A stretch of DNA of 30,992 nucleotides from a virus. Shown one piece after another: positions 2,538 through 24,507 of this stretch. The position numbers and the translations under genes are program-made. The stretch covers positions 1 through 30,992 of IMG/VR virus record IMGVR_UViG_3300005513_000018, one strand, 5' to 3'. Within the stretch, counting starts at the first letter, position 1, and every line of letters starts with the position of its first letter. A model generated the notes under the pieces. It searched no databases and had not been told where the DNA came from. It saw only the letters and a list, made by a program, of their open reading frames with translations.

Positions 2538-2893
2538 TGCCGAACAAGACAGGCGTCCGCCTCTGCGTCGAGTGCGGTCGTGACATGCGTCCCGCCGGCA
2601 CGAACGCTGAGCAGTACCCGATGACCGTCTCGTACGGCCGCGCTGGCGCTTGCACGACCTGCACCGCCCGCGTGACTCGCGGCACCGTGCGTACGCACGA
2701 CGACGTCTCCGAAGACCGCCTGTGGGCGGGCAAGCGGATGCAGCTCGTGCGATGGCGCCAGACCCGTGACGGGTGGGGGTACGACCTCGTCACCGGCCAG
2801 TACGGCGGCCTCGTCGACGGTCACTACCGCCTCGTGAGCGGCGGCACGGAGAAGTTCCTCCCGCGTAACGAGTGGGAGGTCTGCGCAGCGTGA
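2537..2893 (+). CDS. Zinc-ribbon-like protein of unknown function
   Basis: 118 aa, ATG sharing a base with the previous TGA. N-terminal Cys pairs C10-x2-C13 and C39-x2-C42 bracket a GRDMRP...YPMT stretch, typical of small actinophage zinc-finger proteins. The remainder is basic and aromatic (MQLVRWRQTRDGWGYDL). It lies directly before the replication initiator, whose GTG overlaps its stop. A nucleic-acid-binding role is plausible but unproven. Confidence 0.68.
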   Translation: MPNKTGVRLCVECGRDMRPAGTNAEQYPMTVSYGRAGACTTCTARVTRGTVRTHDDVSEDRLWAGKRMQLVRWRQTRDGWGYDLVTGQYGGLVDGHYRLVSGGTEKFLPRNEWEVCAA

Positions 2894-3813
2894 GCAACAA
2901 GGCCATCAACTGGGCGTACGCCCAGCACGGCATCAAGGGCGGCCCGAAGTTCGTCCTGGTGACGCTCGCCGACATGGCGGACCAGGAGCACTCGTGCTTC
3001 CCGGGGAACGACATGCTCGCCGAGCTCACAGAGTTCTCCGTCTCCGCTGTCCGCGAGCACATCAAGAAGCTGCATGCGGCCGGCCTCGTCCGCACCGAGC
3101 GGCGCCACCGGAAGAACGGCGCCCGCAACTCCGACCGCTACTTCCTCGCCGTCGACGGTCCCTTCGATACCCCAGAAATCCAAGCGCCAGATTCTGGCGG
3201 TACGTCCGAGAACCTAGCGCCAGAATCTGCGCAGCCTAGCGCCAGAATCTGCGCGGACCTACCTCCAGAATCTGGCGCTGCATATAAGGAAGAACCCAAA
3301 GAGGTTAACCCACAGACTGAACCCACAGATCTGACCCTCATCGCCGACGATGAGGTCGAGGCAGCCCCGACGATCTCGATCGACGATCTCTTCGACGAGT
3401 TCTGGAAGGCCTACCCGCGACGCGTCGAGCGCAAGGCAGCGGCGCGCGCCTTCGAGAAGGCCGTGGTCTCGATCGCGAAGAGGCGCGGATGGACACCGAT
3501 CCGCGCCGCGGACTTCCTCACCACGGTCATCCGGGCTTGGTCGATCCAGTGGGTGCAGCGCGAGCAGCGCACCCCCGACAAGATCCCCCACGCCGCCAGC
3601 TGGCTGAACGGCGAGCGGTGGACCGATGAGCTCCCGGCCGTCGCGGCCCCCCACGCGGCGGCCGGGTCCCCACCCCCGGGGCGGCATCCGTCCGTGACCG
3701 CCAACCTCAACCTCGTCCAACGCATCGCTCAGCAGGAGGCCAACCGTGAATCGTCTGGAGATCGCCCAGCTCTTGACCGTGGCATCGACGATCGACCACG
3801 TCACACGCTCTGA
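2890..3813 (+). CDS. Replication initiator (winged-helix, lambda O-like), contains the putative origin
   Basis: 307 aa. The GTG at 2890 is preferred over an in-frame GTG at 2872 because GGAGGT (2875-2880) is correctly spaced before it and it overlaps the previous stop. Residues 1-72 form a winged-helix DNA-binding domain with a helix-turn-helix around 40-68 (GNDMLAELTEFSVSAVREHIKK then LHAAGLVRTERR). Residues about 96-155 are a low-complexity linker whose DNA carries iterons. Residues about 165-245 hold the conserved initiator C-terminus: FWKAYPRR at about 171, KAAARAFEKA, IPHAASWLNGERW. By analogy with lambda O, the N-domain binds iterons and the C-domain recruits the helicase/loader. The next gene starts inside its 3' end and is the likely partner. 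Confidence 0.82.
   Translation: MSNKAINWAYAQHGIKGGPKFVLVTLADMADQEHSCFPGNDMLAELTEFSVSAVREHIKKLHAAGLVRTERRHRKNGARNSDRYFLAVDGPFDTPEIQAPDSGGTSENLAPESAQPSARICADLPPESGAAYKEEPKEVNPQTEPTDLTLIADDEVEAAPTISIDDLFDEFWKAYPRRVERKAAARAFEKAVVSIAKRRGWTPIRAADFLTTVIRAWSIQWVQREQRTPDKIPHAASWLNGERWTDELPAVAAPHAAAGSPPPGRHPSVTANLNLVQRIAQQEANRESSGDRPALDRGIDDRPRHTL
3185..3279 (+). repeat. Iteron array (putative replication origin) inside the initiator gene
   Basis: Four copies of a core CCAGAATCTG are seen. R1 is CGCCAGATTCTGGCG at 3185-3199, a palindrome with one central base, carrying the core in inverted orientation. R2 (3213-3232) and R3 (3235-3254) are identical 20-mers, CCTAGCGCCAGAATCTGCGC. R4 is CCAGAATCTGGCGC at 3265-3278. 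Centres are 33, 22 and 23 bp apart, close to whole helical turns, so all sites face the same side of the helix. A degenerate copy (CCAGAAATC) begins at 3172. The array covers codons about 99-130, the linker of the initiator. This is the arrangement of lambda ori within gene O. Confidence 0.75.
3281..3355 (+). other. A+T-richer segment and hairpin beside the iterons (putative DNA unwinding region)
   Basis: Immediately after the last iteron the sequence turns purine- and A-rich. Positions 3281-3330 are about 44% G+C by direct count, against a clearly G+C-rich surrounding sequence. They include CATATAAGGAAGAACCC and a GGTTAACCCACA stretch loosely similar to a DnaA box. Two ACCCACAGA copies follow. 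An 8-bp perfect inverted repeat, CCTCATCG (3336-3343) and CGATGAGG (3348-3355), closes the segment. The codons read KEEPKEVNPQTEPTD, a linker with little constraint on protein sequence. Unwinding function is inferred from position. Confidence 0.5.
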
Positions 3814-4171
3814 GGACGACGTCGACGGCTGGGCGCTCGTGCTTGGCGACGTCGACCGCGACGATGCGATGGAGGCGCTCAAGGCGCACTTCGCCGACCC
3901 GGTCACCGGTCGCGAGTTCCTCAAGCCGGCGCACATCACCGGGAAGATCGCGGCCGCAGCCCCGACCGTTGCGCTGCCGCCCCGTGAGCCCGCGACCTGC
4001 AGCCTGCACGACTACCCGCTGAACCCGGATGGGTCCTGCGACGGCTGCCGCAAGTGGCCGGAGGATCTCCTGCCCGGCGCGCCCGCCCCGCAGCGGATCG
4101 CGTTCCGCCAGGAGCTGCTCTTCGACCCGCGCATCCAGACCGGCAAGACCTACCCCGGGGAGGCGAACTGA
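3746..4171 (+). CDS. Helicase-loader-like / replisome organiser protein
   Basis: 141 aa; GTG start with GCAGGAGGCC just upstream, overlapping the initiator by 68 nt. Residues 1-68 are a compact helical domain (LEIAQLLTVASTIDHV...WALVLGDVDRDDAMEALKAHFAD...FLKPAHITGKI). This follows the pattern of small actinophage helicase loaders: helix pairs, then 'AL.AHY...WL.PAdI'. A Cys/His cluster follows (C85-x2-H88, C98-x2-C101). Adjacency to an O-like initiator mirrors lambda O-P and supports a loader role, delivering a replicative helicase, probably the host's since none of the DnaB type is visible. Assignment rests on pattern and context. Confidence 0.55.
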   Translation: MNRLEIAQLLTVASTIDHVTRSEDDVDGWALVLGDVDRDDAMEALKAHFADPVTGREFLKPAHITGKIAAAAPTVALPPREPATCSLHDYPLNPDGSCDGCRKWPEDLLPGAPAPQRIAFRQELLFDPRIQTGKTYPGEAN

Positions 4172-4437: not shown

Positions 4438-4702
4438 CACCGAGCCCTCCGGCTCGCCCATCCCCGACGGCATCCGGCACCTCGACTTCGGCGTCTGCTT
4501 CCTGCAGCACACCCAGCCGACCGCCCCGGACTACACGCTCCGCTGCCGCCGCTGCGGAAGCACGGCCGAGATTTGCGAGAGCCACTACAACGCCCTCCGC
4601 GCGCACGCCCTCGCCTTCGACGTGATGTGCACCCGCTGCCAGGACGACGGCCCGCTCACCAAGGTGTTCGAACCGCGCCGCATCGGCGGGAGCGCATCGT
4701 GA
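4427..4702 (+). CDS. Zinc-finger-like small protein
   Basis: 91 aa; ATG at 4427 with GGAGG 4416-4420 five to six bases upstream. C40-x2-C43 and C68-x2-C71 are separated by a helix that also carries C50 and H53 (AEICESHYNALRAHAL), giving a four-Cys treble-clef-like pattern. The stop overlaps the GTG of the resolvase gene. A nucleic-acid-binding or adaptor role is plausible; no specific family was recognised. Confidence 0.65.
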   Translation: MLHDTEPSGSPIPDGIRHLDFGVCFLQHTQPTAPDYTLRCRRCGSTAEICESHYNALRAHALAFDVMCTRCQDDGPLTKVFEPRRIGGSAS

Positions 4703-5175
4703 CCGACTACCAGACGCAAGCCGCCGTCGAGCCGTCAGAGTGGACGCTCTACTTCCCCTACGCCACGAACCCGCTGAGCCTCAACGGCCCCCGCGGCCGG
4801 CACTACCTGAAGAACCAGTGGGTCAAGCGCGTCCGAAACGAGACCATCGCGTACATCCGCCAGGCCGGCATCCCGCCCCTCGGCCGCGCCCGCGCCGGCC
4901 TGATCTGGTTCGTGCTCACCAGCAACCGCCGCGACGTCGACAACCTCGCCCCGCTCGAGAAGGTCATGTTCGACGCAATGGTCCGCGCCGGCCTCGTCCC
5001 CGACGACACCCCCGACCTCCTCGAGAAGCTCCGCCCGCAGATCGTCACCGTCGACCGCATGACACACCGCGAAGCGTGGATGGAGCTCCGCATCACCCGC
5101 TGGGACGGCGCTGCCACCCAACCCGCACCAACCACCACCGGATACGTCCAGTCGACCATCACGAAGGAGTCCTGA
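4699..5175 (+). CDS. rusA-like: RusA-family Holliday junction resolvase
   Basis: 158 aa; GTG overlaps the previous stop (GTGA). RusA proteins are dimeric endonucleases that cut four-way junctions. The signature is clear: an N-terminal strand (TLYFPYATNPLSLNG) with R/K-rich helix, then RRDVDNLAPLEKVMFDAM and GLVPDD. D79, D81 and D102/D103 match the acidic catalytic positions, and K88 matches the conserved lysine of the family. The length is slightly above the usual 120-140 aa because of a short N-terminus and a Pro/Thr-rich tail. It probably resolves recombination intermediates before packaging. Confidence 0.85.
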   Translation: MTDYQTQAAVEPSEWTLYFPYATNPLSLNGPRGRHYLKNQWVKRVRNETIAYIRQAGIPPLGRARAGLIWFVLTSNRRDVDNLAPLEKVMFDAMVRAGLVPDDTPDLLEKLRPQIVTVDRMTHREAWMELRITRWDGAATQPAPTTTGYVQSTITKES

Positions 5176-5618: not shown

Positions 5619-5857
5619 CAACACCTCCCGCGCTCGCCGCGGTGCTCGATTTCGAGGCCGAGCACCCGGCGCCGGGCGGGCGCAAGGAGGAGCTGATCCG
5701 GCAGGCGTTCGGAATCTCCGCCGCCCGCTACTACCAACTGCTCCACCGCTACGCCGACAGCCTCGAAGGCCAACAGCACGACCCACGCACCACCAACCGC
5801 ATCCGCCGGCAGCGAGAAGCCGATACCGCAACCCGAGAACGAAGGACCCGCACATGA
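5615..5857 (+). CDS. DUF3263-like DNA-binding-type protein
   Basis: 80 aa. The core (AVLDFEAEHPAPGGRKEELIRQ, then FGISAARYYQLLHRYADSLEG and a terminal R-rich helix) matches the actinobacterial DUF3263 pattern: 'ILdFE..W......KE.aIre.fgms.tRYYQ.Ln.l'. The ISAARYYQLL segment looks like a recognition helix, so a sigma/HTH-like DNA contact is plausible. Start overlaps the previous stop and the end overlaps the ParB-like gene. DUF3263 is largely restricted to actinobacteria and their phages, which is the best host hint here. Confidence 0.72.
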   Translation: MTTPPALAAVLDFEAEHPAPGGRKEELIRQAFGISAARYYQLLHRYADSLEGQQHDPRTTNRIRRQREADTATRERRTRT

Positions 5858-7218
5858 CCGAGACCGCCTACCTGGCCCACATCGAGCCGGGCAAGCTCAC
5901 CACCGACAAGAACGTCCGCAAGGACCTCGACCTGACCAAGGAGTTCCTCGCCTCGGTCAAGAACAACGGGGTGCTCGAGCCGATCGTCGCGTACCCGGAC
6001 GCGCTCAACGACGGGTGCTTCCGGATCCACCTCGGCCACCGTCGCGCCGCGGCCGCCGTCGAAGCAGGCCTCGCGACCGTGCCCGTGTACGTCATCAGCG
6101 AGCGGGACGCGTCCGAGCGCATCAGCGAGCAGCTCGTCGAGAACGTCCACCGCGCCGCGCTCAAGCCCGCCGAGACGGCTGAGGCGTACAAGGAGCTCGC
6201 CCTCTTCGGCCTGCCCGCGACGACGATCGCGAAGAAGACCAGCACCAAGCTCGCGGCGATCGGCGACGCCATCAAGGTCGCCAACAATCCCACCGCGGCG
6301 AAGGTGCTGCAGGAGCGGCAGCTCACCATCGACGAGGCGCTCGTGTTCGCCGAGTTCGATGACGACGAGCAGGCCATCGCCAGACTGGAGAGCGCAGCCG
6401 ACACCGGTCGCCTCGCCTTCACAGCGCAGGTGATCCGCAACGAGCGCGCTGAGGCGGAATCACTCGCCGCCGCGCGCGCCGAAGCCGAGGCCACAGGGTT
6501 CGAGGTCCTCGACGCCGTGCCCAGCTACGACGACCCCAAGTACCGAGCCATCGGCAGAGTGTTCGTCTCCGCGGACGACCTCTCGACTCCTGTCGCCGTC
6601 GAAACCGCCCTCGACGAGGCTCGCGAGGACCTCCGCGTCTTCGTGAGAGCCGTGCCGACGCCCTACGGTGAGCCCACCAAGTACAAGGTCGCCTACGCCC
6701 TGACCAACTGGGCCGACCACGGCTGGTACGCGACCGACTACGGCAAGCCGGCCACCGGCCCGCTCACCGATGAGCAGAAGGCCGAGCGCAGGGCCTTCCG
6801 CGAGAACGCCAAGCTCTGGACCGCAGCCACCCACGTCCGCCTCGACTGGGTGAAGGACTTCCTCCAGCGCCGCACACTCCCCACCGACATCACCAACCTC
6901 CCCGCACTCCTCTTCGCCAGCCGCGACCTCATCGACTACCGGACCCGCAAGATCGCCCGCGATCTCCTCGGCCTCGCCGACGACTACGACGCGCTCAAGA
7001 CCTTCATCACCGGCTCCCCCGCCCACGCACCGCACGTCATCACCGCGCTCGCCGTGGCCGGCTTCGAGCTGAACCTCGACCCGAAGAAGGGCTGGGCCAC
7101 CGACGACGCGCTCACGCCGCTCTACCTGCAGCAGCTGTCCCGCTGGGGCTACCCGCTGTCGGAGCTCGAGGAGAACCTCGTGAAGAGCGCCGCGAGCAGC
7201 GAGGGCGACGCTGCATGA
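5854..7218 (+). CDS. ParB-like nuclease-domain protein
   Basis: 454 aa. Residues about 10-115 form a ParB N-terminal domain: IEPGKL...NVRKDLDLTKEFLASVKNNGVLEPIVAYP, a GHRRAAAAVEAG box, then VPVYVIS and SEQLVENVHRAALKPAETAEAY. Residues about 120-160 are the usual helical HTH following segment (LPATTIAKKTSTKLAAIGDAI). The remaining roughly 300 aa are not recognisable; two WADHGWYATDYGK-like aromatic patches stand out. In phages such proteins occur in replication or regulation modules rather than partition. No ParA is visible here. The nuclease and helicase genes follow with ATGA overlaps. Confidence 0.8.
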   Translation: MTETAYLAHIEPGKLTTDKNVRKDLDLTKEFLASVKNNGVLEPIVAYPDALNDGCFRIHLGHRRAAAAVEAGLATVPVYVISERDASERISEQLVENVHRAALKPAETAEAYKELALFGLPATTIAKKTSTKLAAIGDAIKVANNPTAAKVLQERQLTIDEALVFAEFDDDEQAIARLESAADTGRLAFTAQVIRNERAEAESLAAARAEAEATGFEVLDAVPSYDDPKYRAIGRVFVSADDLSTPVAVETALDEAREDLRVFVRAVPTPYGEPTKYKVAYALTNWADHGWYATDYGKPATGPLTDEQKAERRAFRENAKLWTAATHVRLDWVKDFLQRRTLPTDITNLPALLFASRDLIDYRTRKIARDLLGLADDYDALKTFITGSPAHAPHVITALAVAGFELNLDPKKGWATDDALTPLYLQQLSRWGYPLSELEENLVKSAASSEGDAA

Positions 7219-7619
7219 TCACGTACGCCCGGCAACAGGTCGTCGAACAGGTCATCGAGCTCATCGAAGCGGCCACGCTCACATACAGCGACGAGACCAG
7301 CCTGCACATCCAGCTCGAGCAGCTCCTCGCGCCGGCTGGCTTCGACGTCGCGCGCGAGGTCCGCCTGTCCGACGGCGTCTCGCGCATCGACCTCCTCGTC
7401 GACGGCTGGCTCGGCATCGAGGTCAAGATCAAGGGCACCAGCCCCGAGGTGTACCGCCAGCTCGCTCGCTACACCCACTGCGGCGAGCTCGGCGCCGTTC
7501 TGCTCATCACCACCCGGGCCCGCCACGCCGGGATCGCGAACTGGCTCAACAGCGCCCAGTACAACGACGCCAACGCGTGCGTCGCCTACCAGGTCTCCCT
7601 GCTCGAGGGCGGCCTGTGA
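7215..7619 (+). CDS. PD-(D/E)XK-type nuclease
   Basis: 134 aa, ATG overlapping the ParB-like stop. The catalytic pattern is intact: E35 in an N-terminal helix (LHIQLEQLL), D59 in SRIDLLVDG, E69-x-K71 in WLGIEVKIKG, and a following Q helix (YRQLARYT). This is the minimal restriction-endonuclease-like core. Coupling to the SNF2-type helicase next door suggests the two act together on DNA, for example in replication, recombination or host DNA attack. A structural rather than catalytic role cannot be excluded, but all key residues are present. Confidence 0.75.
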   Translation: MITYARQQVVEQVIELIEAATLTYSDETSLHIQLEQLLAPAGFDVAREVRLSDGVSRIDLLVDGWLGIEVKIKGTSPEVYRQLARYTHCGELGAVLLITTRARHAGIANWLNSAQYNDANACVAYQVSLLEGGL

Positions 7620-9370
7620 ACCGCACCTACGGCACCTACGAGTACCGCCCGCCCGTGTGGGGCCAGCGGTCATCCCGCGGCGTCTGGGCGCTCAAGCTCG
7701 AACCCGCCGTCAGACAACGCGCTCGCCGCGTCTTCGGCCGTGTGCAGGCGACCCGCCAATCGACGATCCTCATCACGGACACCGTCGAGGTCGCCCGCGA
7801 CATCGCCTGGTTCATGGAGCGGTGGCCGCTGCAGCCGGCCGACGACCGGTCGCAGCGCTGGCTTGAGCAGGGCGCACGTGAGCACGCCGACCGCGAGGAC
7901 ACCGTCAACCAGATCCTCACGGGCGACCTGGTGCTCGACGTGCTCCCGCACGAACCGGCCAAGACGCCGCGCGAGTACCAGCGCACTGCCGTCGCGCTGC
8001 TCCGCGCGCGCGGGCGGCTGCTCCTCACCGACGAGGTCGGTCTCGGGAAGACGTTCACCGGCCTGCTGAACCTCGTGCACGAGGACGCGCTGCCGGCGCT
8101 GATCGTCCCGCCGACGCACCTCCCGCGCCGCTGGGTCACCGAGCTCACCGATGCGTTCCCGTGGCTGACATACGAGGTCGCCAAGAAGACCGAGCCGTCG
8201 ATCCGCGCAAAGACCGGCCTGCTCGCCGACGTCACGATCGTGCCGTATTCGAAGATCGACGGCTGGGCCGGCCACCTGCAGAACCAGGTCCGCTCCGTCG
8301 TGTTCGACGAGGTGCAGGAGCTCCGCCACGGTGAGGGCACGTCGAAGGGCGCGGCCGCCGGCCTCGTCGCCGACAACGCCAGCTACGTGCTCGGCCTCAC
8401 CGCCACGCCGGTCTACAACTACGGCGGCGAGATCTGGAACATCCTGAACATCCTCGCCCCGGGCGAGCTCGGCACCCGCGAAGAGTTCGCGCGCGAGTGG
8501 GGCGGCGCCGAGATGTCCAACGGTCGGATGATGGTGAAGGATCCGGCCGCGCTCGGCAACTACCTGCGCGAGCAGGGTCTCATGCTGGGCCGCACCCGTA
8601 CCGAGGTCGGCCGCGAGCTCCCCAAGACGATCAAGCACGCCATGCTCGTCGACACCGACACGACCGAGCTCGACAAGGTGAAGGGTGACTCGAAGAAGCT
8701 CGCCCAGCTGATCCTCAACCAGTCGGCCACGAAGCAGGAACGCTTCCAGGCGGCCGGCCAGATCGACTGGATGCTGCGCGAAGCCACCGGCGTCGACAAG
8801 GCCCAGTACGTCGCCGAGTTCGTCCGGCTGCTGCTGCAGTCGGAGGAGAAGGTCGTGCTCTGGGGCTGGCACCGCCGCGTTTACGACATCTGGATGGAGC
8901 AGCTCGCCGAGTTCAACCCGGCCATGTACACCGGCACCGAGAGCCCGAAGCAGAAGGCCGCCGCCGAGGATGCGTTCTGCACCCCGATCGACCCGGCCAA
9001 CCCCGACGCCGCCTGCCGCGTCCTGATCATGTCCCTGCGCTCCGGCGCCGGCGTCGACGGCCTGCAGAAGCACGCACGCGTCGGCGTCTTCGGAGAGCTC
9101 GACTGGTCCCCACAGGTACACGAGCAGGCCATCGGTCGCCTCCGCCGCGACGGCATGTCCGACGACCCACCCGTCATCTACTTCCTCAACAGCCCCGAAG
9201 GCAGCGACCCCGCGATCATGGACGTCCTCCAGATCAAGCGGCAGCAGTCCGAACCGATGCTCACCAAGGACGGCCAGCTCTTCGCCAACGCCACCACCGA
9301 CACCTCCCGCGCGCGCCGCCTCGCCGAGCAAGTCCTCGGCATCACCCCCACCGAAACGGAGACCCCATGA
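7616..9370 (+). CDS. SNF2/superfamily 2 DNA helicase
   Basis: 584 aa; GTG at 7616 overlaps the nuclease stop. Motifs in order: Q122 in TPREYQRTAV, Walker A DEVGLGKT (139-146), DEVQ box (231-234), GLTATP (260-265), and motif VI QAIGRLRRDG (about 503-512) with WSPQVHEQ before it. The DE.GLGKT and GLTATP forms are typical of SNF2-like ATPases. The first 100 aa resemble the HARP/SMARCAL1-type lead-in of phage helicases, but that is uncertain. ATP-driven DNA translocation or remodelling is expected, with the preceding nuclease as likely partner. Confidence 0.87.
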   Translation: MNRTYGTYEYRPPVWGQRSSRGVWALKLEPAVRQRARRVFGRVQATRQSTILITDTVEVARDIAWFMERWPLQPADDRSQRWLEQGAREHADREDTVNQILTGDLVLDVLPHEPAKTPREYQRTAVALLRARGRLLLTDEVGLGKTFTGLLNLVHEDALPALIVPPTHLPRRWVTELTDAFPWLTYEVAKKTEPSIRAKTGLLADVTIVPYSKIDGWAGHLQNQVRSVVFDEVQELRHGEGTSKGAAAGLVADNASYVLGLTATPVYNYGGEIWNILNILAPGELGTREEFAREWGGAEMSNGRMMVKDPAALGNYLREQGLMLGRTRTEVGRELPKTIKHAMLVDTDTTELDKVKGDSKKLAQLILNQSATKQERFQAAGQIDWMLREATGVDKAQYVAEFVRLLLQSEEKVVLWGWHRRVYDIWMEQLAEFNPAMYTGTESPKQKAAAEDAFCTPIDPANPDAACRVLIMSLRSGAGVDGLQKHARVGVFGELDWSPQVHEQAIGRLRRDGMSDDPPVIYFLNSPEGSDPAIMDVLQIKRQQSEPMLTKDGQLFANATTDTSRARRLAEQVLGITPTETETP

Positions 9371-15294: not shown

Positions 15295-15804
15295 GTGGGT
15301 ACGACGAAATTGCCCCGCCACGGCACCCTCCGCCGCTACAAGCTCGAGCTCGCCGAGGGCCAGACGTGCGAGAAGTGCCGCGCCGCGAATTCCCGGGCGA
15401 AAGCCGCCGAGCGAGCGAACAAGAAGGCACGCGAACAGCGCGCCGGCCTTCACATCGTCCCGGACCCACCAGCCGGCCCCACAGACGAGCCCACAGACAA
15501 CGTCGAAGCGCCAGCCCAGCCTCCGAAGACGACTCACCTCCCTCGCGACGTCCGCACTGACGTCGGAGGCGGCATCGAGAACGCCGTCCGCAACTACCTG
15601 AACAGCGCCGGAACCCAGGATCTACTAGCCCACGTCTACGGCGAAATCGTCATCGCCGTCGCACGGGTCATCTCCACTGCTGAGCCGAAGGACATCCCGA
15701 AGCTCACGGAGGAGATGGTCGACGCGGCGAAGCTCATGCGGCCGGCCGACAGCACCGCTGGAGGTAGCGATGACCCATTCGCTGGCCTCGGCGTCGCGAC
15801 CTGA
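15295..15804 (+). CDS. terS: Terminase small subunit
   Basis: 169 aa from GTG 15295, with GGAGGT at 15285-15290 (spacing short, 4 nt); an in-frame TTG at 15283 would add four residues. The N-terminus carries HGT (9-11) with C25-x2-C28 (QTCEKCRAANSRAKAAERA), a possible metal site of the type also present in the 1446 protein. A Pro/Thr-rich linker (about 60-90) precedes a helical C-domain (IENAVRNYLNSAGT, AHVYGEIVIAVARVIS, IPKLTEEMVDAAKLM) that should oligomerise and contact TerL. The call rests mainly on position before TerL and on the tail helix pattern. Confidence 0.72.
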   Translation: MGTTKLPRHGTLRRYKLELAEGQTCEKCRAANSRAKAAERANKKAREQRAGLHIVPDPPAGPTDEPTDNVEAPAQPPKTTHLPRDVRTDVGGGIENAVRNYLNSAGTQDLLAHVYGEIVIAVARVISTAEPKDIPKLTEEMVDAAKLMRPADSTAGGSDDPFAGLGVAT

Positions 15805-17272
15805 CCAGGGATGCGGAGCTCGCTACTTCACCCCGCGCTCACCGGAGCGCAAGACGTACGGCCCGGAGGTCTCGAAGATCTCCGCCGCGCTCGGCACACC
15901 GTTCATGCCCTGGCAGAACATGCTGGTCGACACCGCACTCGAGGTCGACCCGGCGACGGGCCTGCTCGCCTACCGCTTCGTCATCTTCAAGGTCCCCCGC
16001 CAGGCCGGCAAGACGACACTCACCCTCGCCGTCGCCGTCCACCGCGCGATCGCGTTCGCCAAGGTCAACGGCACCCCGCAGAACATCATCTACACCGCCC
16101 AGACCGCCCAGGACGCCTTCAAGAAGTGGTCCGACCAGTCGGACGAATTGCTTGCCGCGCTCGGTGAGCGTCGCGTCCACAAGCGCGGCGGCAACAACAC
16201 GCCAACGCTCACCTTCGCGAACAGGTCCGAGTACCGGCCCATCTCCGTCACCAAGAAATCTGGCCCCTCCCAGTCCAACGACCTGCTCTTCTACGACGAG
16301 GCTTGGGGACACGAGGACGGCCGCATCGAGGCTGGCCTCGGCCCGACCACCATCGCCCGCCGACAGCCCCAGAGCTGGATCTACTCCAACGCCGGCACAC
16401 GAGAGAGCCACTGGTGGAAGGGCAAGTGGACGATGGGCCGCGAGCTCGCGCTCGAAGGCAACACCACCGACGGCATCGCCTACTTCGAGTGGAGCGGCTC
16501 CCGCGAAGACGAGGACTACGATCCCTCCAACCCGGAATACGTCGCGCGGCACCATCCTGCAGCGGGCATCACGATCGACCTGGCGGGCTTCCGAGCCGAG
16601 TACCGCGCCATGCTCGCCAACCCCGACGAGGGCCTCGAAGGGTTCGAGCGTGCCTACATCAACGTCGAGCCCGACGAGACCGTCCGCACCTGGGAAGTCG
16701 TCACCGAAGAACGCTACCTGGCCACCGGAACCGACGAGTTCATCGCGGGGCCGCGCACGTTCGCTCTCGATGTCAGCCCTGACCGGGCGTGGGCCACGGT
16801 CGGCTGGGCCGGCCAGACGCCGACTGGCAGAGATCTTGCCGAGGTTATCCAGCACGAACGCGGCACCGGCTGGGTCGTCCCGTACTTCGTCGACAAGTTC
16901 TCGCGGAACCCGAAGTATGACCGCAGGGTCTACCTGGTGGCCAGGAGCGAAGCGTCGCGGCTCCAGGACGACCTGGAGAAGGCCGGAATCACTGTCGTCC
17001 CTCTCTCCAACGAGGACTACGCGACCGCCTGCTCGAAGTACTACGACGGCCTCACCGAACCTGACGGCCGGCAGCGTCACCGCGCCGAAGGCCAGGCGCC
17101 CCTCGACAAGGCCGTCGCCGGCGCCGTTTGGAAGGTCACGGGCGAGGCCCGCGTCTGGGACCGGCGCAAGTCCGCGACCGTCATCTCTCCCCTCGTCGTA
17201 TGCACGGTCGCCCAGCACGGTCGCCGCCTCTCGCTCGAGAGCGAATACGACGTCCTCGACTCGATCGCCTAG
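15770..17272 (+). CDS. terL: Terminase large subunit
   Basis: 500 aa; ATG with GGAGGT four nt upstream, overlapping TerS by 35 nt. It packages DNA by ATP hydrolysis and cuts the concatemer. Walker A is VPRQAGKTT (75-83), with the glutamine-containing form common in phage ATPases. Walker B is LLFYDEA with D176-E177. The nuclease domain begins with the acidic strand FALDVSPDRAW (D334), and DKAVAGAVWKV near 447 carries another expected metal ligand. Length and motif order are standard for HK97-type terminases. Confidence 0.93.
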   Translation: MTHSLASASRPDQGCGARYFTPRSPERKTYGPEVSKISAALGTPFMPWQNMLVDTALEVDPATGLLAYRFVIFKVPRQAGKTTLTLAVAVHRAIAFAKVNGTPQNIIYTAQTAQDAFKKWSDQSDELLAALGERRVHKRGGNNTPTLTFANRSEYRPISVTKKSGPSQSNDLLFYDEAWGHEDGRIEAGLGPTTIARRQPQSWIYSNAGTRESHWWKGKWTMGRELALEGNTTDGIAYFEWSGSREDEDYDPSNPEYVARHHPAAGITIDLAGFRAEYRAMLANPDEGLEGFERAYINVEPDETVRTWEVVTEERYLATGTDEFIAGPRTFALDVSPDRAWATVGWAGQTPTGRDLAEVIQHERGTGWVVPYFVDKFSRNPKYDRRVYLVARSEASRLQDDLEKAGITVVPLSNEDYATACSKYYDGLTEPDGRQRHRAEGQAPLDKAVAGAVWKVTGEARVWDRRKSATVISPLVVCTVAQHGRRLSLESEYDVLDSIA

Positions 17273-17283
17273 GAGGTGCCCCG

Positions 17284-17430
17284 ATGAAGGACATCCTCGC
17301 TGACGCTCTCATGTTCGTCGCACTCGCCCTCGTCACGGTTGGCGCGGTGCTGATCGCTCCGGCGGCCGGATTCATCGTCGCTGGTCTCGGCCTCGCCGGC
17401 ATCGCCTTCCGGATCGGAACCAAGGCATGA
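17284..17430 (+). CDS. Small membrane protein between TerL and portal
   Basis: 48 aa. ATG at 17284 with AGGAGGT at 17271-17277; its TGA overlaps the portal ATG. A short start (KDILADAL) leads into hydrophobic segments at about 8-25 and 27-44 with Gly/Ala-rich packing (LVTVGAVLIAPAAGFIVAGLGLAGIAF), ending in RIGTKA. Ideal ribosome site and coupling argue for expression. Similar tiny membrane proteins are often found here in actinophages; role unknown. Confidence 0.7.
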   Translation: MKDILADALMFVALALVTVGAVLIAPAAGFIVAGLGLAGIAFRIGTKA

Positions 17431-18593
17431 GTCTCCTCTTCCGCGGAACCACGCCGCCGCCGCGCATCGGCAACATGTTCCCGAGTCGGACGCGCAAGCA
17501 GGTCGGATCCGTCGCCGTCACCGACCAGACCGCCCTGCAGCACTCGGCGGTCTGGGCGGCGCTCCGCTTGCGTGCCGACCTCATCTCGTCCATGCCAGCA
17601 GACGCGTACCGCAAGGTTCAGGGCATCGACGTCGAGGTCCCCTCTCCCCCGGTGCTGCTCAACCCCGGCGGCGACGAGTGGGATCTCGGCACCTGGCTGT
17701 GGGCATCCCAGTTCGACCTCGACCGCGTCGGCAACTGCTTCGGTGTCATCACCGAGGTCGACGGATCGGGCCGACCGAAGGTCATCCAGCTGCAGGAGCA
17801 CACACAGGTCGCCGTCAAGGTCGCCCGTGACGGCACGGTCTCGTATCGAATCAACGGCAAGCCCTACAAGGCCGAAGAGATCTGGCACGAGCGGCAGTAC
17901 CGGCTCCCGGGTCAAGTCATGGGGCTCTCGGCGCTTAGCCTCGCCGCCTACTCCATCGGCCAGTACCTCTCTGCCCAGCAGTTCGGCATCGAGTGGTTCA
18001 CCAACGGCGGCGCAGTCCCCAGCGGCGTGCTCCGCAACAAGGACAAGGTGATTCCGGACGACGCTGCTGACGTCATCAAGGAGCGGTTCAAGGTAGCGAT
18101 CGCCGACCGCGACGTCTTCGTCACCGGCAACGACTGGGAGTACAGCACCCTCAACGTGTCCACCAACGAGGCGCAGTTCCTCGCCTCCCAGGAGTACAGC
18201 TCCACGGACATTGGGCGCTTCATCGGTGTCCCCGGCGACCTCATCGACCTGTCCGTCAAGGGCCAGAACGTCACCTACGCCAACATCAGCCAGCGCAACC
18301 TGCAGTTCCTGATCATGAACCTCTGGCCCGCCGTTCGGCGCCGGCAGGTCTCTCTCTCCAAGCTCCTGCCCGCTCCCCGCTACGTCCGGTTCAACACCGA
18401 CGCGCTGCTGCAGATGGATCCCGAGACCAAGTCCAAGGTGCTCGGCCAGCAGATCCGCGACCGGATGCGCACCGCTACCGAGGTACGCCGCGTCGACAAC
18501 TTCGAGCCATTCACCGATGACGACTACGCCGAGTTCGACCGGCTCTTCCCCAAGAGCCAGGCACCCCAGAAGTCCACCACGATCGGAGACTGA
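17427..18593 (+). CDS. Portal protein (HK97 family)
   Basis: 388 aa, ATG overlapping the previous stop. Portal proteins form the dodecameric ring at the head vertex through which DNA passes. Recognisable features are the N-terminal SAVWAALRLRADLISSMP, the LLN / FDLDRVGNCFGVI segment, LPGQVMGLSALSLAAYSIG, and the FIGVPGDLIDLSVKG...TYANISQRNLQFL block. The C-terminal part runs LLPAPRYVRFNTDALLQMD then DRMRTATEVRR. Order and length are typical of HK97-like portals. Confidence 0.92.
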   Translation: MSLLFRGTTPPPRIGNMFPSRTRKQVGSVAVTDQTALQHSAVWAALRLRADLISSMPADAYRKVQGIDVEVPSPPVLLNPGGDEWDLGTWLWASQFDLDRVGNCFGVITEVDGSGRPKVIQLQEHTQVAVKVARDGTVSYRINGKPYKAEEIWHERQYRLPGQVMGLSALSLAAYSIGQYLSAQQFGIEWFTNGGAVPSGVLRNKDKVIPDDAADVIKERFKVAIADRDVFVTGNDWEYSTLNVSTNEAQFLASQEYSSTDIGRFIGVPGDLIDLSVKGQNVTYANISQRNLQFLIMNLWPAVRRRQVSLSKLLPAPRYVRFNTDALLQMDPETKSKVLGQQIRDRMRTATEVRRVDNFEPFTDDDYAEFDRLFPKSQAPQKSTTIGD

Positions 18594-18595
18594 CC

Positions 18596-19363
18596 GTGAG
18601 CACACTCATCGCCGCCGACCTCGCCGGCCGCCGCGCCGCCGCCCAGGCCGACCCCTCAACGCTGCCCAGCGGCGGCCAGCGCGATCAGTCGTTCAAGACC
18701 GAGATCCGCGCCAAGCTCGTCGAACAGGACGGCAAGAAGTTCTACGAGCTCGCCGGGTGCGCGTCGACGGTCAACCAGACCTACCAGATGTACGACTTCT
18801 GGGGACCGTACGACGAGAAGATCGACCCTGGCGCGTTCGACAAGACGCTCGCGGCCGACCCGGATGTCGCGTTCCTGCTCAACCACCGTGGCACCACGAT
18901 GGCCAGGACCAAGTCCGGCACCCTCACCCTCTCCGTCGACGAGGAGGGCCTCCAGGTCGAGGCCCTCACGAACGCCGAGCGGCAGGACGTCCGCGACATG
19001 GTCGTGGCGATCAACGACGGCGACATCGACCAGATGAGCTTCGCCTTCCGTATTGTCCGCGGCCAGTGGTCGCCGGACTACACCGAGTACACGATCCTCG
19101 AGGTCGATCTCGATCGCGGCGACGTCTCGGCCGTCAACTTCGGCGCCAACCCCTACACGTCGATCAGCGCTCGCGCACAGCGCGCGCTCGACGGCATCGA
19201 CCATCTGGAGGGTCCGGTGCTGCGCGCAATCGTCGCGCGTGCCGAGGAGCGTCTCGCCGAGACCGAGCAGACCCGCCGGTCCGACGACGACGCCGCAGCC
19301 GCCGCGCCCGGACGACCGAGCGTCGCCACCCTGCGCGCCCAACTCGAGCTCGGTCGCGCCTAA
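18596..19363 (+). CDS. Prohead protease (HK97 / S78 family)
   Basis: 255 aa; GTG two bases after the portal stop. Catalytic candidates are H97 in FLLNHRGTT and S148 in MSFAFR, in the usual order and context (FDKTLAADPDVAFLLNH; DIDQMSFAF). The GRDVSAVNFGANP-like stretch (DRGDVSAVNFGANPYTS) is also standard. The last 60 residues are Ala/Asp-rich and probably disordered. It cleaves the capsid delta domain during maturation. Confidence 0.92.
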   Translation: MSTLIAADLAGRRAAAQADPSTLPSGGQRDQSFKTEIRAKLVEQDGKKFYELAGCASTVNQTYQMYDFWGPYDEKIDPGAFDKTLAADPDVAFLLNHRGTTMARTKSGTLTLSVDEEGLQVEALTNAERQDVRDMVVAINDGDIDQMSFAFRIVRGQWSPDYTEYTILEVDLDRGDVSAVNFGANPYTSISARAQRALDGIDHLEGPVLRAIVARAEERLAETEQTRRSDDDAAAAAPGRPSVATLRAQLELGRA

Positions 19364-19372
19364 CAAATCGTC

Positions 19373-19445
19373 CCCCGAAAGACCGGGGAGACCGCGATGC
19401 GTACCACCCCGAAGCCAGATGAGCCGAGGGAAGCCAGATGAGCCG
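19373..19445 (+). repeat. Small hairpin and tandem 16-bp repeat between protease and capsid genes
   Basis: CCCCG (19373-19377) and CGGGG (19384-19388) can form a short hairpin after the protease stop. GAAGCCAGATGAGCCG then occurs twice, at 19411-19426 and 19430-19445 (19-bp period). The 133-bp gap has no credible gene; ATG at 19397 would encode only 14 residues. The gap could hold regulatory structure for high capsid expression. Confidence 0.6.
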
Positions 19446-19495
19446 GCCGCGCGCGCACCCACCCATCCCACCCGATTCCATCGAAAGGAACCGTC

Positions 19496-20965
19496 ATGAA
19501 GTTCGCAGACCTCATCGCGGCCGCCGAGCGTGAGCTCGCCGCCGCCGAGGCCAAGCGCGCCGGCCTCGTCACCGAGCAGAACACCCTGCTCGACGGCAAG
19601 GACGAGCGCTCCTCGCTGTCCGAGACGGAGAACGCCCGCTTCAAGGAGCTCAGCACCCAGAAGGCCGCCGTCGACTCGGAGATCACGGCCGCCCGCGCCA
19701 AGATCGACGACCTCAAGGCCGAGGAGCGCGCCGACTCCGAGGCGGCCCAGCGCGCCAACGAGTCGAAGCCCGGCGCGGTCTCCCCGGCCGTCGTCGTCAG
19801 CGAGGCCCGCACGTACACCCTGGATACCGCCCGCCGCGGCGTCAGCTTCTTTGCTGACGCCTACCGGGCGCAGTTCAAGAGCGACTTCGAGGCCTCCGAG
19901 CGCCTCCGTCGCCACGACAACGAGGTGCGCGTCGAGCGCGAGGCCCGCGCCATCGGCACAGGCAGCGTCGGCGGCCTGGTGATCCCGCAGTACCTCACGG
20001 AGCTGCTCGTGCTCCCGACCCGCAAGGGCCGCGTGTACGCCAACCAGGTCACCAACCTGGAGCTCCCCGACACCGGCATGGTGCTGCAGATCCCGCGCTG
20101 GCAGTCGGGCACCACGGTGACCAGTCAGAACGGCGAGAACACCAACGTCAGCAACACCGACATCGTCGGCGACACCGACCTCCTGGTCAACGTCCGGACG
20201 ATCGCAGGCGAGCAGGACGTCGCCCGCCAGCTGCTCGAGCGCGGTGCCCCCGGCGTCGACCAGATCATCTACGCGGACCTGGTCGAGGCGTACCACGCCC
20301 AGCTCGGCTTCCAGGTGATCAACGGTGACGGCACCGCCAACACCCACCTCGGCGTCATGAACACGGCAGGCATCCCGAAGTCCACCGCCTTCGGTGCCGC
20401 GCTGACCGCCGCGCTCTTCTACAAGAAGATCGCCGGCGCGATCGCATCCGTCGCCTCGGGTGTCCGGGCCGCCAACGAGCCCCCGCTCGAGGCGAACCTG
20501 ATCACCATGCACCCGCGCCGCTGGGGCTGGCTGACTTCCCTCACCGACAGCGACGGCCGTCCGCTGGTCAACACCGAGTGGAACGGCCCGGCGAACGTCC
20601 AGGGCCTCAACCTGAACCCCGGACGCCAGTCGCTCGCGGACCAGGAGGGCGCGGGCGATCGCGTGGTCGGCCAGATCCACGGCCTGCCGGTGGTCACCGA
20701 CGCGCAGATCCCGACCAACGTCGGCACCAACAACGAGGACGTCGTCCTCGTCTCCGACACCGGCAAGTCGCTCCTGTGGGAGGACGGTGACGGCGCTCCC
20801 CGCGAGCTGCAGTTCGACCAGACCAACGCGTCGAAGCTCCAGATCAAGCTGCAGGTCTACGGCTACAGCGCCTTCACGGCCGGCCGCCGCCCGACCGCGA
20901 CCGCGATCGTCGGCGGTGCCGACACCGCGGCCGGCAACGGCCTGATCCAGCCCTCGCTCTTCTAG
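19496..20965 (+). CDS. Major capsid protein with N-terminal delta domain (HK97 fold)
   Basis: 489 aa; ATG with GAAAGGA upstream. Residues 1-90 are a charged coiled coil (AAAERELAAAEAKRAGLVTE, ARAKIDDLKAEERADSEAAQ), the delta/scaffold domain cleaved by the protease. The HK97 core begins around residue 155 with GSVGGLVIPQYLTELL, followed by the E-loop and P-domain (DLVEAYHAQLGFQVINGDGT, ITMHPRRWGWLTSL) and an IHGLPVVTDAQIP segment. Length and architecture are typical of a fused scaffold-capsid protein. No separate scaffold gene is seen. Confidence 0.93.
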   Translation: MKFADLIAAAERELAAAEAKRAGLVTEQNTLLDGKDERSSLSETENARFKELSTQKAAVDSEITAARAKIDDLKAEERADSEAAQRANESKPGAVSPAVVVSEARTYTLDTARRGVSFFADAYRAQFKSDFEASERLRRHDNEVRVEREARAIGTGSVGGLVIPQYLTELLVLPTRKGRVYANQVTNLELPDTGMVLQIPRWQSGTTVTSQNGENTNVSNTDIVGDTDLLVNVRTIAGEQDVARQLLERGAPGVDQIIYADLVEAYHAQLGFQVINGDGTANTHLGVMNTAGIPKSTAFGAALTAALFYKKIAGAIASVASGVRAANEPPLEANLITMHPRRWGWLTSLTDSDGRPLVNTEWNGPANVQGLNLNPGRQSLADQEGAGDRVVGQIHGLPVVTDAQIPTNVGTNNEDVVLVSDTGKSLLWEDGDGAPRELQFDQTNASKLQIKLQVYGYSAFTAGRRPTATAIVGGADTAAGNGLIQPSLF

Positions 20966-20977
20966 GGCTGACCGACC

Positions 20978-21013
20978 CGGGTGGGCCGCTCTTCCTGTCG
21001 AGCGGCCCACCCG
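20978..21013 (+). terminator. 13-bp perfect hairpin after the capsid gene
   Basis: CGGGTGGGCCGCT (20978-20990) and AGCGGCCCACCCG (21001-21013) pair perfectly across a 10-nt loop, starting 12 nt after the capsid stop. There is no U-tail. It could be a partial terminator or an mRNA 3'-end stabiliser that raises capsid over connector expression. Confidence 0.65.
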
Positions 21014-21045
21014 CTCCACCATCACCGACGCCACCGGAGGAAATC

Positions 21046-21561
21046 GTGAGCGAGAAGATCCTCAGCAACATCGCCCAGAACTACAAGGACATGGTCGCCA
21101 ACGGCGAGCGAACCTGGGCGGCGATCGCCGACCAGGCCGAGAAGAACGGCTCCAAAGAACTCGCCGCCTGGGCGCGCGCCCAGGACGTCACCGCCACGTC
21201 GACGGCGTCCACCGCATCCACCGCCATCGACGCGAAGCCGGTCGACGAACTCACCGTCAACGAGATCAAGGAGCGCCTCAAGGAGTTCCCGGACGTCGAG
21301 CCCAAGTCGTCGTGGGTCCGGCAGAACTACGTCGATGCGCTCGAGAGGGCGATCGCCGACAAGGCGGCCGCGGACAAGCGCGCGAGCGAGGGCGACTTCG
21401 CCGAGCTCGACGACGCCGACCTCCTCGAGTACGCGATCCAGGCCGGCGCGGCGACCGACGGCGAGCTCGTCAGCCGCGAGGACCTCATCGCGCGCATCCG
21501 CGCCGTCGAGGAGGACAAGGCAAAGACCGAGGCCGACGCCACGGGCCAGACCAGCAAGTAG
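21046..21561 (+). CDS. Head-associated hypothetical protein, HeH/SAP-like segment
   Basis: 171 aa; GTG with GGAGG upstream. Charged and helical. A Ser/Thr/Ala-rich spacer (about residues 47-62) separates an N-terminal helical part from VDELTVNEIKERLKEF...YVDALERAIA, which resembles a HeH/SAP helix-extended-loop-helix motif. The C-terminus (DDADLLEYAIQAG, then ATDGELVSREDLIARIRAVE) is acidic. Between capsid and connector genes it may be a head decoration or accessory protein, but there is no direct evidence. Confidence 0.6.
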   Translation: MSEKILSNIAQNYKDMVANGERTWAAIADQAEKNGSKELAAWARAQDVTATSTASTASTAIDAKPVDELTVNEIKERLKEFPDVEPKSSWVRQNYVDALERAIADKAAADKRASEGDFAELDDADLLEYAIQAGAATDGELVSREDLIARIRAVEEDKAKTEADATGQTSK

Positions 21562-21576
21562 CAGCGGGAGCAGCAC

Positions 21577-22143
21577 ATGGCCACCGGTGACATCGTCACG
21601 ATCGACGAAGTCCTCACCTCCCTGTTCGATCCGGGCGTTCCCGTCGACGAAGCCAAGAAGGCCGACGTCGATACCTATCGGGCGGCGGCGACTCCCGTCA
21701 TCGAGGAGATCTGCGGACCCATCGCGCGGAAGACTGTCACGGTCCGTCGCAACGGCGGCAAGACGGCCATCTCGCTCCCATGCTGGTTCGACGACGTCGT
21801 CTCCGTAACCGAGGACGACGTCGAGATCCACGACTATCTCGCCTCGCCGGATGCCGGCCTCATCTACGCCGGTGACAGGCATGCCTCCCGCCGGTTCGCG
21901 GCCGGCATCCGAAACGTTGTGGCGGAGGTCGTCACCGGCTACGAGCCGGACGACATCCCCCCGAACGTCAAGCTCGCCACGCGCGAGCTTGTCCGCTTCT
22001 GGTGGCAGCAAGGCCGGCAGGGCACGCGCCCCGGGTACGGCGAGCCGTCCGCGGACACGATCGATGTACCGTCCGGGTTCGCGGTCCCCCGCCGCGTCAT
22101 GGAGCTTTGCCGCCCCCACCGGCGATACGGGGGGTTCGCCTGA
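21577..22143 (+). CDS. Head-to-tail adaptor (gp6-like connector)
   Basis: 188 aa; ATG with GCGGGAGCAGC upstream. The pattern fits phage connector proteins: an N-terminal helix bundle (VDTYRAAATPVIEEICGPIARKT), a beta segment with ISLPCWFDDVVSVTEDD, then a central IYAGDRHASRRFAAGIRNVVAEVVTGYE and helix PPNVKLATRELVRFWWQQ. This '...VRN..V.YtaGy...P..vk.A...L....W' arrangement is typical of HK97 gp6-like adaptors that dock on the portal. Confidence 0.72.
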   Translation: MATGDIVTIDEVLTSLFDPGVPVDEAKKADVDTYRAAATPVIEEICGPIARKTVTVRRNGGKTAISLPCWFDDVVSVTEDDVEIHDYLASPDAGLIYAGDRHASRRFAAGIRNVVAEVVTGYEPDDIPPNVKLATRELVRFWWQQGRQGTRPGYGEPSADTIDVPSGFAVPRRVMELCRPHRRYGGFA

Positions 22144-22619
22144 TGCCAACGCCGCAGCCGCGGAACGCCACGCGCCTGAACGACTACCGGCAGGCCATCA
22201 TCGCGGCCTGCCACCAACTGTGGGACGAAGCACAGCCGGACCTCCTCATCGCTGAGGGCCACCCCGGCGTCGCGCAGAACGACAACATCGTCGGCTTCGG
22301 CCGCGGCACCGACGACCAGGACGACGCGACGATCGGCCCGCGTCGACAACGCGAATCGACCATGAGCCTCGCCGTGCTCTTCTCGATCTTCCGCGCCGGC
22401 GGCATGGAGGCCGAGAAGGTCGCCCGCGACTACGCGTACGACCGGCTCCGTGAGCTCGAGAACTACGTCCGCGCTACGGACACCGAGCTCGGCGGAGTCG
22501 TCCGCTACTGCTTCATCACCAGCATCCAGGACGAAGGCGTCGACCCGGCGCTCATCACCAACGGTCGCCTCATCGAGGTCCAGGCCATCTTCACCGCCCA
22601 CACCCGCATCACCAGCTAG
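22143..22619 (+). CDS. Tail terminator-like protein
   Basis: 158 aa; ATG shares a base with the previous TGA. A helix (RLNDYRQAIIAACHQLW), beta strands with MSLAVLFSIFRAG, a long helix (EKVARDYAYDRLRELENYVRATD), then TELGGVVRYCFITS and a terminal strand EVQAIFTAHTRI. The 'helix - strand - helix - D.tLgG.v....I.s...... v....' arrangement matches tail terminator proteins of siphophages, which cap the tail tube. Fold-level call; a head-closure role is the alternative. Confidence 0.6.
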   Translation: MPTPQPRNATRLNDYRQAIIAACHQLWDEAQPDLLIAEGHPGVAQNDNIVGFGRGTDDQDDATIGPRRQRESTMSLAVLFSIFRAGGMEAEKVARDYAYDRLRELENYVRATDTELGGVVRYCFITSIQDEGVDPALITNGRLIEVQAIFTAHTRITS

Positions 22620-22629
22620 GAGCGCACCC

Positions 22630-22953
22630 GTGTCCGACGCCATCACCTTCAAGAACGTCAGCCGCTTCGGCGACCTCGATCTGCCGCTCGTCGGCGGCGT
22701 CGTGGCTGCCGGCGAGGAGTTCGAGGTCACCCTCGACCAGGCGCGGCAGCTGCAGCAGCAGCCCGACCTCTGGGAGCACGTCAGTGGCGAGATCCCCGAG
22801 CCCGACGAGTACGCCTCGCTCAAGGTCGACGAGCTCAAGCAGCTGCTCGCCGACCGCGGCCTCGACACGTCCGGCAAGAAGGACGCGCTCATCGAGCGCC
22901 TCGAAGAGGCCGACGCGGCCGCCATCAACAACCCCGAGGGAGACCAGGCATGA
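22630..22953 (+). CDS. SAP-domain protein in the connector module
   Basis: 107 aa; GTG at 22630 with CTAGGAGC upstream. Residues 1-58 are beta-like (AITFKNVSRFGDLDLPLVGG, VVAAGEEFEVTLDQARQL). Residues 62-95 form a textbook SAP domain: SLKVDELKQLLADRGLDTSG followed by KKDALIERLEEAD. SAP domains normally bind A/T-rich DNA. Finding one between tail terminator and major tail protein is interesting. The stop overlaps the tail protein ATG. Confidence 0.72.
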   Translation: MSDAITFKNVSRFGDLDLPLVGGVVAAGEEFEVTLDQARQLQQQPDLWEHVSGEIPEPDEYASLKVDELKQLLADRGLDTSGKKDALIERLEEADAAAINNPEGDQA

Positions 22954-23975: not shown

Positions 23976-23979
23976 GCTG

Positions 23980-24507
23980 ATGGCGTTCCTGCAGGCTGAA
24001 TCGGGCTACAGCGTCGTCATCGACGGCGAGCAGTGGTACCGGTTCAAGCAGGAGCTCGACAAGTTCGACCCGGAGCTCGCGCGATCGCTCCGCCGGCGCA
24101 TCAAGGCTGCCGGCGAGACCGCCGCGAAGAAGGTGCAGGAAGAGCTCGGCCTCCCCAGCCCTGATGGGGGTCCAGACAGCGGCGCAGGCCGCCGGGCCCT
24201 CATCGCGGCCACCAAGGTCTCGGTCTCGTTCTCCAAGCGCTCCTCCGGCGCTCGCATCGTCACCAGCGGCCGCGGCCTCCCGGCCGGCCACGAGGGCCTG
24301 CTCAAGGTCTACAACAAGGCCAGTTTCCGACACCCCGTCTACCCGCGCCAGGGCATGGAGCGAAGCGACTGGACGTGGGTCAACCAGAAGGGCCGGCCGT
24401 ACTTCGGCTCGGTGATCATGCGTGCGATGGACGAAGCCGTCGCCCGCGAGATCTTCGACGCCGTCGACGACGCCGTCCGCGTCATCGGCGCGAAGGGACC
24501 GCTATGA
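23980..24507 (+). CDS. HK97 gp10-like tail completion / connector protein
   Basis: 175 aa from ATG 23980. The layout is typical: WYRFKQELDKFDPELARSLR, helix RIKAAGETAAKKVQEEL, a strand region VSVSFSKRSSGARIVTSGRG, then FRHPVYPRQG and FFGSV-like YFGSVIMRAMDEAVAREIFDAV. The pair 'F.HPv.G....w....g.pyf...i....'is diagnostic of this group. These proteins usually lie before the major tail gene; here the gene lies after it. Its stop overlaps the gpG-like ATG. Confidence 0.68.
   Translation: MAFLQAESGYSVVIDGEQWYRFKQELDKFDPELARSLRRRIKAAGETAAKKVQEELGLPSPDGGPDSGAGRRALIAATKVSVSFSKRSSGARIVTSGRGLPAGHEGLLKVYNKASFRHPVYPRQGMERSDWTWVNQKGRPYFGSVIMRAMDEAVAREIFDAVDDAVRVIGAKGPL

Follow-up and report, generated by a model that had tools for sequence, protein, structure and literature searches.

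An origin placed inside the gene of its own initiator is of an already known kind. In phage lambda, the initiator O binds its iterons as dimers (PMC7466680, PMC5043065), and the neighbouring A+T-rich tract is opened after the O dimers have bound (PMC5043065). In SPP1, the direct repeats of oriL and an AT-rich DUE lie inside gene 38, and the next gene encodes the helicase loader gp39 (PMC6316719). The Rep proteins of iteron plasmids bind their direct-repeat iterons as monomers (PMC5043065), and the tandem 13-mers of the RK2 DUE are bound as one strand by TrfA (PMC4081077). For actinobacterial prophages, Wetzel et al. found no repeats near repA and offered, as one possibility, a lambda-like site, either inside repA or ahead of it (PMC7157519).

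The window analysed here is an entire IMG/VR virus record of 30,992 bp, which may itself be a fragment, and from its relatives and G+C content we infer a host among the Actinomycetota. We consider it very likely that positions 3183-3334, in the linker-coding part of an initiator gene (Table 1), are a theta-type origin working by the steps proposed below. The annotated start of this gene, which has a second in-frame GTG upstream at 2872, is supported by the alignment of its relatives, beginning at MSNKAINWAY. The protein matches Pfam HTH_36 (6.5e-10), PHROG 270 (replication initiation protein, 1.8e-38) and PHROG 391 (O-like, 1.9e-16), and its AF2 model consists of one winged helix (helices 3-11, 18-29, 40-47 and 51-63; strands 67-73 and 79-86) and a helical C-terminal domain of a sort common to many phage replication proteins. 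In a viral fold library the matches were phage HTH and replication proteins, with RepA-like initiators and the replication protein O of phage Min27 represented. Fold matches in the PDB were weak, the DnaD N-domain being among them, and Foldseek found nothing there below E 0.001; the wHTH assignment is accordingly based on Pfam, PHROGs, the AF2 model and the viral library, and not on Foldseek against the PDB. The protein is thus an O/DnaD-like wHTH initiator. Between its two domains lies a low-confidence linker, probably disordered to judge from the model, whose coding segment holds both the repeats and the A+T-richer stretch.

Table 1. Coordinates of the putative in-gene origin, its initiator and the adjoining loader gene in the window
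Feature	Position	Strand	Details
Initiator gene	2890..3813	+	307 aa; GTG start at 2890; VSNKAINWAY...
Winged-helix DNA-binding domain, residues 3-90	2896..3159	+	AF2 model; pLDDT mostly >90
Low-confidence linker, residues 92-160	3163..3369	+	AF2 pLDDT ~46-61
Iteron 1, GCGCCAGATTCTGGCGG, near-perfect palindrome	3184..3200	+	7/8 dyad pairs
Iteron 2, GCGCCAGAATCTGCGCA, within exact 20-mer 3213-3232	3217..3233	+	4/8 dyad pairs
Iteron 3, GCGCCAGAATCTGCGCG, within exact 20-mer 3235-3254, other codon frame	3239..3255	+	4/8 dyad pairs
Iteron 4, CCTCCAGAATCTGGCGC	3262..3278	+	6/8 dyad pairs
Putative unwinding module	3280..3334	+	GCATATAAGG, then three AACC repeats
8-bp inverted repeat, 4-nt loop	3336..3355	.	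Arms 3336-3343/3348-3355
C-terminal helical domain, residues 164-245	3379..3624	+	FDEFWKAYPRR...; AF2 model
Helicase-loader gene, SPP1 G39P type	3746..4171	+	Overlaps initiator 3' end

A preliminary description of the sequence had placed four copies of a repeat in the linker of a winged-helix initiator gene, two of them identical 20-mers and the first a near-perfect palindrome, and all of this was borne out. The common core is CCAGAWTCTG, with starts at 3187, 3220, 3242 and 3265 and centre-to-centre spacings of 33, 22 and 23 bp (array 3184-3278); as a small correction, copy 1 reads CCAGATTCTG, its central A/T being in the other orientation. The exact 20-mer common to copies 2 and 3 is CCTAGCGCCAGAATCTGCGC. 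The dyad is nearly complete in copy 1 only, and copies 2 and 3 keep just the 9-bp core; its presence suggests that dimers of the wHTH domain may plausibly occupy the iterons. When the core was searched on both strands with at most one mismatch, all eight matches in the 30,992-bp record fell within 3187-3275 (shuffle expectation 2.1, with no shuffle reaching eight), and a second, oriR-like cluster was not found elsewhere in this possibly fragmentary record. The helical phasing also claimed holds only roughly, since the spacings amount to 3.14, 2.10 and 2.19 turns at 10.5 bp per turn, and phasing was not used as evidence. Cumulative GC skew had no turning point near 3.2 kb and thus lends the proposed origin no support.

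Several observations indicate that the DNA sequence itself is constrained. In 300 synonymous-codon shuffles keeping the protein and its codon usage, the longest exact repeat was 15, versus 20 observed, and the repeat-family score of the gene was 10, the maximum among 100 synonymous shuffles being 6. Of the 51 codons in 3183-3335, 28 are AT-ending, versus 33 of the 257 in the remainder of the gene (p 5e-10). The repeat unit does shape the linker peptide, as had been described, copies 1, 2 and 4 being read in the same frame (PDSG/PESA/PESG); copy 3 is read in another (ARIC), so that the repetition belongs to the DNA and not to the peptide. The number of 10-mer copies was discarded as a statistic; four or more copies arose in 61 of 300 shuffles, and match quality was scored instead.

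Linker repeats were then sought in related initiators; their absence would have told against the reading, and the comparison gave the opposite result. The closest relative (L003, whose best segment is 67% identical) shows five sites at matching places with spacings of 33, 33, 21 and 24, the first decayed and read by eye; it keeps the core CAGAWTCTG, with different flanks. A more distant relative (L004, 41%) carries an unrelated palindrome, GTCGGAATCCGAC, at spacings of 34, 23 and 22. The best 12-mer repeat family of each of 47 non-redundant initiators from the fetched loci was scored against 100 synonymous shuffles: linker arrays beat all shuffles in 33 and reached 5% or better in 41, counts that are not independent events since about ten of the 47 come from one clade. 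Among 78 control long ORFs of the same loci, which are mechanical ORFs and not curated genes, none beat all shuffles and two reached 5%. The remaining six initiators (L058, L103, L098, L107, L118 and L007) had no array significant even at 5%, and in L097 the nominal repeat family lies outside the linker. As a positive control, lambda O put through the same procedure returned its four annotated iterons. Among the isolates, none of 100 shuffles came up to the array of SfV, Abidatro, Orcanus, Amelia, Kepler, RedFox or JBD68, three of 100 reached that of LZ35, and the linker arrays of Sansa and Vibrio D65 were not significant. The DNA of locus L191 gave no match to isolate phages.

The arrays nearly always start just behind the wHTH domain, and 48 of 98 adjacent iteron pairs are exactly 22 bp apart, with 13 at 17 bp; the commonest spacing is thus not a multiple of 3. 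The iterons themselves vary between clades (ACCGGT, AACGTT, GTCTCAGAATGAGAC, GTGCAGGAGGTGCAC, GGGGTGCAC, CCCCTTCGG, GTCCGCCAAACGGAC and others). Covariation of recognition helix and iteron was tried as a test and dropped: the raw Mantel statistic was reached in 20 of 1000 permutations, and the partial one, given the rest of the domain, in 118 of 1000, which is not significant. By eye and post hoc, R-[AST]-[VL] helices are paired with half-sites of GTGCA, and SVxTVRR ones with ACCGGT. The close relatives L100, L101 and L103, whose recognition helices differ at one residue (AVSTVRR versus AVITVRR) and whose iterons drift from ACCGGT to ACCGAT/ACCGTT, form a natural set for work on initiator specificity. 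The same kind of wHTH initiator also occurs on plasmids of Corynebacterium mustelae (L058), with two GAACCA repeats after its sites, and of Arthrobacter sp. U41 (L059), with three GTGCAGAATCTGCAC palindromes whose core resembles that of the window.

The A+T-richer stretch that had been reported behind the iterons is present (47-50% G+C, surroundings 66-70%; 47% over the 60 nt 3' of the iterons versus 66% for the gene), and it contains a structured tandem-repeat module that the preliminary description had missed. Three AACC repeats, GAACCCAAAG at 3292, TAACCCACAG at 3306 and GAACCCACAG at 3319, follow one another, the last two making a 13-bp tandem repeat. Across relatives the consensus is RAACC-NNYMA(G), repeated in tandem at about 11-13 bp (range 10-14 bp) on the iteron strand directly 3' of the iterons. 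The module is nearly identical in L003, where synonymous-site conservation of this segment (15/16 versus 139/182, p 0.09) is no more than suggestive, the codons being too few for a test. The 8-bp inverted repeat described further 3' exists as stated and is probably incidental; the window holds 13 of this kind, and one arm has a mismatch in L003.

In 41 genes, the 75 nt 3' of the iterons contained 58 DAACC words on the coding strand and two on the other, where synonymous shuffles gave 24.6 +/- 3.2 (maximum 32) versus the 58 observed; the spacing mode is 11 bp, and the frame counts of 29/11/18 mean that all three frames are used. The 60 nt past the last iteron average 49% G+C versus 63% for the genes, being lower in 40 of the 41, and AT3 is raised in 40 of 41. 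Since the motif was first noticed in this set, two further tests were made. In isolates and plasmids, 21 RAACC repeats were observed versus 8.1 +/- 2.2 expected. Viral contigs were also scanned by motif only, with the DNA pattern GAACCATCAG-N0-4-GAACCATCAG, and 20 of 28 scorable loci fell within wHTH initiator genes. Among the 17 non-redundant initiators so found, iterons beat all 100 shuffles in 16 and reached 5% in all 17, always lying 5' of the GAACCATCAG motif. The other eight loci had no wHTH initiator over the motif, and those inspected were mostly EPSD/EPSG-type coding repeats; in L192, L199, L186, L205 and L208, GAACCATCAG tandems stand in EPSG/EPSD-repeat proteins or away from long ORFs, and nothing there points to an origin.

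The RAACC module is common to phages of Actinomycetota and Pseudomonadota with unrelated iterons. One clade (L119-L161) has GGAAC-type words in its place, and lambda has neither. An exact GAACCATCAG tandem was not found in 396 actinobacterial genomes, and a BLAST search of isolate phages with the short element was set aside, its matches being too short to carry meaning. We found no description of the module in the open-access literature searched, where the papers listed for the element itself belonged to unrelated fields, an absence that is not proof of novelty. The module is probably the unwinding or ssDNA-binding element.

These data also bear on whether the DNA repetition could be the by-product of a low-complexity, repeat-expanded linker (PESA/PDSG), the feature then being one of the protein. 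Three of the four window copies do share a frame, GAACCATCAG tandems also serve as EPSD/EPSG coding repeats in unrelated proteins, and 15 of the 17 initiators picked by the exact GAACCATCAG motif use one frame (EPS). The explanation is nevertheless contradicted already, and we give it hardly any credence: the third copy departs from that frame, the favoured 22-bp spacing shifts frame at each copy, synonymous shuffling destroys the signal in the 33 initiators counted above, and each of the three frames is used by the RAACC repeats of the wider set.

The gene following the initiator encodes a putative helicase loader. Phages of Gordonia, Arthrobacter and Mycobacterium have homologues of it annotated as helicase loader or lambda P-like, a PDB profile search placed 1NO1 (SPP1 G39P) first (E 0.052), and VIA aligned its model to 1no1_A with Z 10.0 and an rmsd of 1.1 over 63 of 67 residues, the next match having Z 5.2. 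With Foldseek alone, 1NO1 ranked 16th (E 7.1), and it is the profile hit together with the VIA alignment, not Foldseek, that supports the assignment to the G39P type. A gene for a replicative helicase was not recognised among the window ORFs scanned. In L099 and L108 the following gene, its sequence read by eye, looks like a DnaB-type helicase, and annotated DnaB-like helicases adjoin the initiator in LZ35 and Sansa. Gordonia Lucky10, Arthrobacter Persistence and AbbyDaisy, Mycobacterium prophiGD53-3 and Gordonia Kenna (L177-L181) share the loader gene and have other initiator types; their initiator genes contain short tandem repeats (GGAACAGG-type 8-mers, ACAGA 5-mers and AATACCC units), with TCGCGA palindromes in some, which are perhaps unwinding elements of different initiators. 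Elsewhere in the window, an ORF just upstream of the initiator (2537-2893) matches a 2Fe-2S ferredoxin-like motif weakly (Fer2 E 0.0019, short of the Pfam cut-off), genes for a RusA-like resolvase (4573-5175) and an SNF2-type helicase (7577-9370) come after the replication module, and the stretch 15770-27851 contains genes for terminase, portal, major head and tape-measure proteins.

Near the replication module the phage also encodes a ParB-like protein (5854-7218; PHROG 6218, 3.1e-65). Partition sites of the parS type can be clustered palindromes, so the array fits a centromere for this protein in that respect. Such a site would have no reason to track an initiator linker or to precede the RAACC module, and dozens of initiator genes have their array immediately after the wHTH domain, among them lambda O, whose iterons bind O (PMC7466680); a partition centromere is therefore very improbable. 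Somewhat less remote, though still unlikely, is that the wHTH protein uses the repeats as operators to tune or repress transcription of the replication operon, the origin lying elsewhere. Proteins with wHTH domains are often repressors, and the fold here resembles MarR/ArsR-like regulators. In nearly all members, however, the sites are placed some 260-400 nt into the gene and not at a promoter; a conserved AT3-rich tandem module comes after them, helicase loader or helicase genes follow, and the same layout is an origin in lambda O and SPP1 gene 38 (PMC5043065, PMC6316719). Autoregulation is possible as a secondary role of the repeats.

For the in-gene origin, we propose an order of events taken by analogy from lambda, SPP1 and RK2. 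The N-terminal wHTH domain, probably as a dimer, would bind the four palindromic iterons, and the bound, roughly phased array would bend the DNA into an O-some-like complex, straining its weaker 3' neighbour. The tandem RAACC repeats would then open, and one exposed strand would be captured, with the initiator itself the probable agent. Its C-terminal domain and the G39P-like loader could finally load the replicative helicase of the host onto that strand.

What differs from the known kind is a family-wide rule, in which the iterons vary and both their spacing and the RAACC module stay constant. With slightly more doubt than confidence, we suggest that the RAACC tandem is a common sequence-specific element for unwinding and strand capture, shared by a very large group of initiators from phages and plasmids, whose origins would be modular: iterons and wHTH domain would change together and set specificity (incompatibility), and the RAACC repeats and 22-bp geometry would stay fixed because they contact unchanging machinery. 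Origins of most sequenced phages are unknown, and the rule, iterons about 22 bp apart just after a wHTH domain and followed by RAACC, would locate the origin of many uncharacterised phages and plasmids and open it to direct testing. The locus also illustrates clearly how a DNA site can dictate the linker sequence of a protein, and the natural initiator/iteron pairs offer material on the evolution of origin specificity and for compatible replicons in Actinomycetota.

Iteron plasmids (RK2/TrfA, P1, R6K) resemble the window in having phased iterons beside a DUE of short tandem repeats (PMC4081077), the 10-14-bp RAACC repeats being a possible counterpart of the 13-mers of RK2. They differ in that their origin lies outside the rep gene and their Rep has two winged-helix domains (PMC4081077), whereas the window repeats are inside an ORF whose product is modelled with one. 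In SPP1, the fold of gp39 matches that of the gene product next to the initiator here; this phage differs in having an additional oriR outside the gene, for which the window, with core matches only in 3187-3275, has no counterpart, and its own DnaB-type helicase, gp40. The PHROG 270/HTH_36 initiators of Arthrobacter phages Abidatro and Kepler, Pseudomonas JBD68 and Shigella SfV have the same domain order with linker iterons and RAACC repeats; their iterons are unrelated to those of the window, and the annotations fetched mark no origin within these genes. Lambda itself differs in iteron sequence, in having an A-rich tract where the window has the RAACC array, in its C-terminal domain, in the type of loader (of the SPP1 G39P fold in the window) and in lacking the 33-bp interval between copies 1 and 2; only the wHTH domain is convincingly shared with O, and lambda is absent among the tblastn matches listed. 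The layout is nonetheless that of lambda: an initiator with an N-terminal DNA-binding domain, dyad repeats as putative binding sites in mid-gene between this and the C-terminal domain (33/22/23 bp apart with 7, 4, 4 and 6 of 8 dyad pairs, beside 20/24/23 in lambda and roughly 20-24 bp for the type), a weaker, strand-asymmetric and presumably easily melted stretch directly 3' of them, and a helicase-loader gene next. The suggestion of a lambda-like origin with a different repeat is thus well supported by comparison with the relatives and with lambda O.
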